Positions 54,981 through 56,289 of a stretch of DNA of 64,000 nt are shown in pieces. The position numbers and the translations under genes are program-made. The DNA is from Rubrivivax sp. (GTDB lineage: Bacteria; Pseudomonadota; Gammaproteobacteria; Burkholderiales; Burkholderiaceae_C): assembly GCA_021298085.1 (NCBI GenBank), contig JAJTDE010000003.1:1-64000 (forward strand), written 5' to 3'. The notes beneath the pieces are model-generated. The model was not told the DNA's origin. It ran no database searches and saw only the letters and a list, made by a program, of their open reading frames with translations. Position 1 is the stretch's first letter. Every line of letters begins with the position of its first letter.

Positions 54981-55154
54981 TCGGGTCGCCCATCAACATG
55001 AGGCTCCACGCCACCGCCGCCGGGCAAGCACGGCCCTGGGACGCTGACGCAGCGCGCCAAGACGGCGCTGACCCCATGCCGACCAACGTGACGTCTTCAC
55101 GCTCACCCCCGTCGTTGCTGGGGCTATTGCTGGCGGCCTCAGAATGGCGCTTGT

Positions 55155-55273
55155 CGAAAGGGGAGTAGCCTGCAGCGCACTGCTGCCGCGTCACCCCGTC
55201 AATACGGAGAACCCGCAGCGGTTCCCCGGGGCCGCAAGGCACCACGCCCGTGGTGCTTCCGCAAGACCTTTCG
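55155..55273 (+). ncRNA. yybP-ykoY (Mn2+) riboswitch aptamer
   Basis: CGAAAGGGGAGTAGCC...GTCAATACGG...GCAAGACCTTTCG: conserved GGGGAGTAG and GCAAGACC elements; 7-bp P1 CGAAAGG(55155-55161):CCTTTCG(55267-55273); directly upstream of a TerC-family gene. Confidence 0.9.
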
Positions 55274-55320
55274 GCGCCAAGTCATCCCTTCATCGAGATC
55301 TGCGCCGAAAGGAGTGTCCC

Positions 55321-56289
55321 GTGGACACCATTGCTCCCCTGTGGTTGTGGGCGGTATTCATCGCCATCGTCATCGCTGCCCTGTTTGTCGACTTTGTGGT
55401 CCTGAAGAAGCAGGGCGCGCACGAGGTGGGCGTCAAGGAGGCCCTGAACTGGTCGCTCGTCTGGGTGGCCCTGAGCTTTGCCTTCAACGGGTTGTTCTGG
55501 TGGGCTATCCAGCAGGACCACGGCACCGCGCTGGCCAACACCAAGGCCATGGAATTCCTGACCGGCTACCTCATCGAGAAGAGCCTGGCGGTGGACAACA
55601 TCTTTGTCTTCCTGATGATCTTCACCTACTTCGCGGTGCCACCGGCTTTCCAGAAGCGGGTGCTGATGATCGGCATCATCGGTGCCATCGTGCTGCGCAC
55701 GATCATGATCCTGGTAGGCGCCTGGATGATCCAGCACTTCCACTGGATCCTTTACGTGTTTGGCGCCTTTCTGGTGCTCACCGGCATCAAGATGTGGTGG
55801 GCTGCCGGCCAGGAGCCTGACCTTGAGTCTAACCCTGCACTCAAGCTGCTGCGCCGCATCATGCCGGTGAGCAAGAACTTTGACGGCGAGAAATTCTGGA
55901 TCGTTGAGAACGGCAAGAAAGTCGCCACGCCGCTGCTGCTGGTGATTGCGCTGGTCGGCCTGACGGACGTCATCTTTGCGGTGGACTCCATCCCTGCCAT
56001 CTTTGCCATCACAATGGACCCGTTCATCGTGCTGACGTCCAACGTCTTTGCCATCCTCGGGCTGCGCGCGATGTATTTTCTGCTGGCGGCCGTGGCTTCC
56101 AAGTTCCACCTGCTGAGCTACGGCTTGTCGGTGATCCTGGTCTTCATCGGAACCAAGATGATCCTCATCGACATCTACAAGATCCCGGTGGCGGTATCGC
56201 TCGGTGTCGTGGTGGGTATCCTCGCAGTGACGATGCTGCTGAGCGTGAAGACAGCGCCGAAGATCGCTTCAGACCGCTCGGAATCCTGA
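55321..56289 (+). CDS. TerC-family integral membrane protein (Alx-like)
   Basis: GTG start 55321 with SD aaaggag; LFVDFVVLKKQGAHEVGVKEALNWSLVWVALSFAFNGLFWW...EFLTGYLIEKSLAVDNIFVFLMIFTYFAVP...DVIFAVDSIPAIFAITMDPFIVLTSNVFAILGLRAMYFLL. Confidence 0.96.
   Translation: MDTIAPLWLWAVFIAIVIAALFVDFVVLKKQGAHEVGVKEALNWSLVWVALSFAFNGLFWWAIQQDHGTALANTKAMEFLTGYLIEKSLAVDNIFVFLMIFTYFAVPPAFQKRVLMIGIIGAIVLRTIMILVGAWMIQHFHWILYVFGAFLVLTGIKMWWAAGQEPDLESNPALKLLRRIMPVSKNFDGEKFWIVENGKKVATPLLLVIALVGLTDVIFAVDSIPAIFAITMDPFIVLTSNVFAILGLRAMYFLLAAVASKFHLLSYGLSVILVFIGTKMILIDIYKIPVAVSLGVVVGILAVTMLLSVKTAPKIASDRSES

Follow-up and report, generated by a model that had tools for sequence, protein, structure and literature searches.

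The window, a stretch of 64,000 nt of genomic DNA from Rubrivivax sp., harbors on its forward strand the alx gene (55321..56289), which starts with GTG and encodes a membrane protein of the TerC/Alx family with 322 aa. The assignment to the TerC family was confirmed by PF03741 (E 2e-50) and by NCBIfam TIGR03718 (R_switched_Alx), for which the score of 409.7 bits lies well above the cut-off (246.4). On the basis of the latter match, the RNA element described below is located upstream of a gene for Mn2+/metal homeostasis. The alx frame is open further upstream to an ATG at 55144, across the whole aptamer (381-aa ORF). We rejected this N-terminal extension of 59 codons, because 55321 is the conserved start (MDTIAP, kept in relatives) and the extension consists of the aptamer. 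A gene caller may pick ATG 55144, and the riboswitch would then be hidden.

Architecture of the alx leader

All features of the leader are on the forward strand. The P1 helix is formed by 55153..55161 (GUCGAAAGG) and 55267-55275 (CCUUUCGGC). The preliminary description had placed P1 at CGAAAGG (55155-55161) and CCTTTCG (55267-55273), and all of its coordinates were right when read directly from the sequence, but the helix is longer than claimed and comprises 9 bp with one U-G pair. The matching pairs of P1 (helix 1) covary in 48 distant leaders. The 5' side of L1 (55162..55169, GGAGUAGC) is a near-invariant core in the alignment of these leaders, and AGACC, which runs from the 3' side of L1 (GCAAGA, 55261-55266) into the 3' strand of P1, is invariant in them. 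The extended core GGGGAGUAGC (55160-55169) with GCAAGACC opposite (55261-55268) is present in the window and likewise near-invariant in the 48 leaders. P3.1 (55194-55198/55227-55231) and P3.2 (55206-55213/55220-55226) are covarying helices in the same alignment (helices 2 and 3) and flank the one-sided loop L3 (UCAAUAC, 55199-55205). The P2 hairpin (55172..55186; 55172-55176/55182-55186) and the P4 hairpin (55237..55258; 55237-55245/55250-55258) were taken from the fold of the window leader.

The strand at 55267..55277 (CCUUUCGGCGC) is common to P1 and an alternative helix, anti-P1. Its partner at 55302..55312 overlaps the Shine-Dalgarno sequence (SD) AAAGGAG (55308..55314), which precedes GTG 55321-55323 with a spacer of 6 nt. 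Both the SD and the perfect 11-nt complementarity of CCTTTCGGCGC (55267-55277) to GCGCCGAAAGG (55302-55312) had been noted before and can be read directly. A helix including the SD and excluding P1 is present at these positions. By our own arithmetic (about 38 placements x 4^-11), the chance of such a perfect complement is about 1e-5. The duplex of the anti-P1 strand with the downstream region has an energy of -23.5 kcal/mol, which was matched by 0 of 200 shuffles, and the fold of the whole leader is better by 4.1 sd than those of dinucleotide shuffles. The 11-nt complementarity is not due to chance.

In the free fold of the window, the aptamer core AGGGGAGUAG (55159-55168) pairs with alx codons 4-7 (UUGCUCCCCU, about 55331-55340). 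This possible second off-helix is specific to the window and, as a feature of the fold, probably incidental; the pairing of GCUCCCC (codons 5-7) with the GGGGAG core was set aside for this reason.

The start codon lies partly in the loop of a hairpin, GUGUCC-CGU-GGACAC (55314..55328). Of the 41 leaders from the genus, 40 have such a hairpin with 4 bp or more and the start codon within or beside the loop. It has 4-6 bp, usually GUGUC with GACAC, and a concerted change to UCUC/GAGA was seen in L189-L191.

Upstream of the leader, a -10-like box CAGAAT (55140..55145) predicts a transcription start near 55152. The A at -19 and the T at -15 ahead of GGGGAG are 93% conserved in the 41 genus leaders. 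Since a scan gave no consensus sigma-70 promoter and the evidence is this conserved -10-like box, the promoter is to be regarded as putative. An inverted repeat CCCC-N9-GGGG (55107-55123) is located just 5' of the -10-like box, at the expected place of a -35 region. With this spacing, CCC and GGG are each common in the genus, both were present in 15/39 cases, and looser forms occur in sister genera. The repeat may serve as an operator or as an upstream terminator. No intrinsic terminator was found in the window leader.

Assignment to the yybP-ykoY class

The leader had been assigned to the yybP-ykoY class with RF00080 as the proposed check, the lack of a significant hit being taken to speak against the class. 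Using RF00080 of Rfam 15, we obtained no match in the window, neither at the gathering cut-off (45 bits) nor, with permissive filters, at E<=10. Read to the letter, this outcome would refute the assignment. However, the same model also missed the alx leader of E. coli MG1655 (L035 3869-4007) at E<=1. As this leader is reported to sense Mn, we judged the missing match to be invalid as a refutation. Window-type leaders of the order, searched beside E. coli alx, were likewise missed, and of seven further window-type loci, five went unmatched at E<=1 and the remaining two, with 43.9 and 28.2 bits, stayed below the cut-off of 45. No RF00080 match above cut-off was found anywhere in 31 of 48 genomes or records with an alx-type element; the other 17 have one, which may or may not be to the alx-type element. 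The whole genome of the window contains one strong RF00080 element (83.2 bits) on contig C24 (L001 1501-1688; G000:C24:3655-3842), upstream of a GDT1-family gene. In our judgment, the failure of RF00080 says more about the coverage of the model than about class membership. The printed RF00080 consensus of Rfam 15 is without the P1 stem, which may account for part of the missed alx-type leaders. In the scan at E<=10, flavi_FSE reached 16.3 bits and Scr6925 13.4 bits, both far under their cut-offs, and these matches are attributed to chance.

When 300 genomes of the order were searched by pattern, two kinds of elements were recovered, one with GUCAACAYACUUG/CAUGGCG, which is RF00080-like, and one with GUCAAUACG/CCGG, which is window-like. 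The window leader has the core GGGGAGUAGC...GUCAAUACG...CCGG...GCAAGACC, and the E. coli alx leader also belongs to the second kind. By a pattern scan of GTDB genomes we collected at least 80 alx-type loci (L036-L115) from Bacillota, Pseudomonadota, Nitrospirota, Chloroflexota and others. A held-out covariance model (R1) was built from 48 of these alx/ykoY-type leaders, none of them from the genus of the window. With a 26-pair structure that was chosen on the same 48-leader alignment, 83.8% of the paired cells were filled by pairs, compared with 62.6% in shuffles, and two-sided changes numbered 307 versus 112. Covariation was strong, with a score of 0.523 (0.166 in shuffles), and all slid versions of the structure scored far lower.

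When applied to the genome of the window, the held-out model gave the window element as the best match with 43.5 bits and E=6.7e-9 (E-values from this model are rough), while the canonical copy reached 21.2 bits. The E. coli alx leader scored 54.2 bits. P1, P3.1, P3.2 and L3 with its invariant adenosine are all present in the window according to this model and to the published structures discussed below. The class call rests on the held-out model together with the comparative evidence, and by these the yybP-ykoY class is the best supported assignment. A second, more distant Alx lineage of the genus (L194, L195, L197, L198; start MQSIGSP or MQTIGSP) also has alx-type aptamers upstream, scoring 24-40 bits.

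Since alx-type leaders, including that of E. coli alx, go undetected by RF00080 at its cut-off, the switch ahead of many TerC genes will be overlooked in genome annotations. This annotation gap was exposed by the alx-type leaders tested directly, to which RF00080 of Rfam 15 is blind or which it scores below cut-off.

The two kinds of elements differ in L3. The loop is UCA41AU43UC in Lactococcus lactis and ACA48UACU in Xanthomonas oryzae, and in both structures the N7 of an adenosine contacts Mn2+ (PMC6754395). By comparison of the loops, A55201 in the window L3 (UCAAUAC) is the counterpart of A41, the residue that contacts Mn2+ in L. lactis. The genome of the window carries one element of each L3 type. 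As assigned by a simple ORF rule, TerC was encoded downstream of 45/65 alx-type elements, cation P-type ATPases of 7/65 and GDT1 or Mntp of 0/65. Canonical elements, collected from one order only, preceded GDT1 in 17/20 cases, Mntp in 1/20 and TerC in 0/20. This sorting of L3 types by gene would fit a changed ligand, with the alx-type elements sensing a signal other than Mn2+. We consider this very improbable: the L. lactis L3 (UCAAUUC) is of the alx type, and its crystal structure with Mn2+ shows the inner-sphere contacts that are also seen in the X. oryzae type (PMC6754395); the E. coli alx leader with the same L3 type is reported to be Mn-sensing (PMC9603457).

Expression platforms and codon usage in the genus

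An alx relative at E<=1e-120 was present in 46 of 81 genomes of the genus, and 41 of the leaders were readable (L153-L193). The aptamer is kept in 41/41 of them. Platform types were assigned by eye. An SD-covering anti-P1 is found in 4/41 leaders, namely in the window, L155, L166 and L184. The arrangement in L155 is the same as in the window, and the complement is written in other letters in L166 (CCUUUCGAC with GUCGAAAAGG) and L184 (CCUUUCGGCAUGA with UCAUGCCGAAGG). Compensatory change may have kept the alternative helix over the SD in the latter two, but in 33/41 leaders the strand after P1, CGGCGCGA or near it, is complementary to UCGCGCCG at alx codons 4-6 instead. In L189-L192 the anti-P1 strand is folded into a hairpin 5' of the SD. 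Some leaders of sister genera (L208, L212, L213, L224) also put the complement over the SD. The SD type needs four changes on the tree and a single clade was rejected (AU p 2.7e-4), so it is polyphyletic.

In minimum-energy ensembles free of constraints, most coding-type leaders paired anti-P1 with the coding sequence at P>=0.86 (among those that did not are L156, L158, L170, L173, L181 and L183), and all eight leaders of the other types paired it with the UTR at P>=0.83. Single coding-type duplexes were only modestly better than shuffles; the case for the coding platform rests on its repeated location and on codon choice. Ala5 is encoded by GCG in 33/33 coding-type genes, whereas elsewhere in the 41 genus genes GCG accounts for 711/1516 Ala codons; of the 23 conserved Ala columns, codon 5 varies least. 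For Pro6, CCG is used by 32/33 coding-type genes, and among 8 Pro columns this one varies least, too. The eight leaders with other platforms have GCG at codon 5 in four cases and CCG at codon 6 in five. GCGCCG was intact in 32/33 coding-type genes versus 2/8 others (Fisher p 4e-5, a test that ignores relatedness). The constraint on codons 5-6 is relaxed in these eight leaders. For a sign test, the tree offered only two independent pairs on well-supported branches; both pointed almost always in the expected direction, but with this number significance cannot be reached. The helix of the coding platform hardly varies; one pair has a two-sided change (G-C to A-U in L157, L160 and L164).

We somewhat favor the view that close relatives have interchangeable off-switches: one and the same anti-P1 strand would either cover the SD (window, L155, L166, L184) or pair with alx codons 4-6, with the target switched repeatedly within one genus and the riboswitch thus constraining synonymous codons. 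A specialist may not foresee that in near relatives this strand appears to be aimed at the gene itself, where the choice of codons fits the pairing. No description of a coding-sequence platform was found in the open-access papers searched.

Proposed switching mechanism and comparison with known systems

P1 and anti-P1 both use 55267-55275, and to this extent the two helices are mutually exclusive, as had been suggested. The simple picture needs a kinetic element, however, because in silico the free fold of the full window leader with anti-P1 was about 20 kcal/mol more stable than the P1-forced fold. With this gap a purely thermodynamic switch would stay off. As the gap is above the likely payment from Mn2+ docking, the switch is most likely decided co-transcriptionally, before 55302-55312 emerges. 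In simulated transcription, P1 was dominant (0.96-0.99 at most lengths, 0.53 at 55300) up to about 55305, and then anti-P1. The large gap might also indicate a genuine yybP-ykoY relative whose switch is stuck in the window, with an anti-P1 so stable that Mn2+ hardly matters, or answers to a different signal, for instance pH or pausing; the E. coli alx leader was described as a kinetic element answering alkaline pH via pausing (PMC3874183). We regard this as quite unlikely, since neither the docking of L1 with L3 nor the kinetics of transcription enters the fold energies, other relatives with the same layout have gaps of 0 to 13 kcal/mol, and the aptamer core, which is kept in all 41 genus leaders, is intact including A55201.

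By comparison of sequences, the aptamer core, P1 and the anti-P1 helix over the SD are in place, and the aptamer is conserved in the genus. We predict that the leader is a genuine Mn2+ riboswitch of the alx type whose anti-P1 platform covers the SD, a fresh case of a known class. Our main reading, to which we assign a probability of roughly 0.77, is an alx/ykoY-type yybP-ykoY Mn2+ riboswitch that would turn on translation of the TerC/Alx exporter by freeing the SD, the response to the ligand being predicted. P1 would form first while the RNA emerges. With enough Mn2+, L1 and L3 would dock around the metal via A55201 and P1 would be held, so that the SD strand would be free on emerging some 30-40 nt later and alx would be translated. 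Without Mn2+, the strand 55267-55277 would move to 55302-55312 and the SD would be buried. In most relatives, where the anti-P1 strand matches alx codons 4-6, the helix would enclose the SD and the start codon. The ON direction is deduced from the stabilization of P1 by Mn2+ in the X. oryzae riboswitch (PMC6754395) and from the reported induction of E. coli alx and mntP by Mn (PMC9603457). The proposal of the preliminary description that Mn-bound P1 frees the SD is therefore the best supported reading, with anti-P1 overlying the SD, but it requires a kinetic, co-transcriptional choice. The SD-covering form is a minority in the genus (4/41), which we counted against this explanation.

The same aptamer might act mainly on transcription. 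Rho would then terminate the untranslated nascent mRNA without Mn2+, Mn2+ would prevent this, and covering of the SD would be only the first step. Control by Rho and riboswitch together is reported for E. coli mntP (PMC11647493), and a yybP-ykoY element of Bordetella pertussis was described as halting transcription without Mn (PMC8546581). The window leader lacks an intrinsic terminator, and its anti-P1 partner overlaps the SD exactly, which would be needless for a switch acting on transcription only. We consider such a mode of action unlikely and prefer control of translation. The window leader would then represent a compact translational Mn2+ switch with all parts readable and about 40 natural relatives, in which the platform is seemingly rewired and the aptamer is fixed. 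Exchanges of native leaders could therefore be used to test how the platform evolves.

The E. coli alx leader resembles the window in L3 type and gene family, is recognized by the held-out model and, like the window, missed by RF00080. Its stable inactive fold is escaped through kinetic control (PMC3874183). It differs by its greater length, with terminator-like and pause-controlled hairpins, whereas in the window leader one 11-bp anti-P1 lies right over the SD and an intrinsic terminator is absent. The yybP-ykoY riboswitch of L. lactis (4Y1I) shares the one-sided loop L3, UCAAUUC versus UCAAUAC in the window, and the Mn2+-contacting adenosine (PMC6754395), but it controls another gene via a different platform, and P1 of the window is longer (9 bp). 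The canonical RF00080 type, represented by X. oryzae yebN and by the copy on C24 (L001) of the window genome, has the L1 core and the P1 logic in common with the window; it differs by L3 ACAUACU with the continuation CUUG/AUGGCG and precedes GDT1 or Mntp genes. In the thiC TPP riboswitch of E. coli, competition between P1 and anti-P1 during transcription likewise decides whether the ribosome-binding site is accessible (PMC5234074). The ligand is a different one and the logic is opposite: anti-P1 of thiC is the ON state, while anti-P1 of the window is predicted to be OFF.
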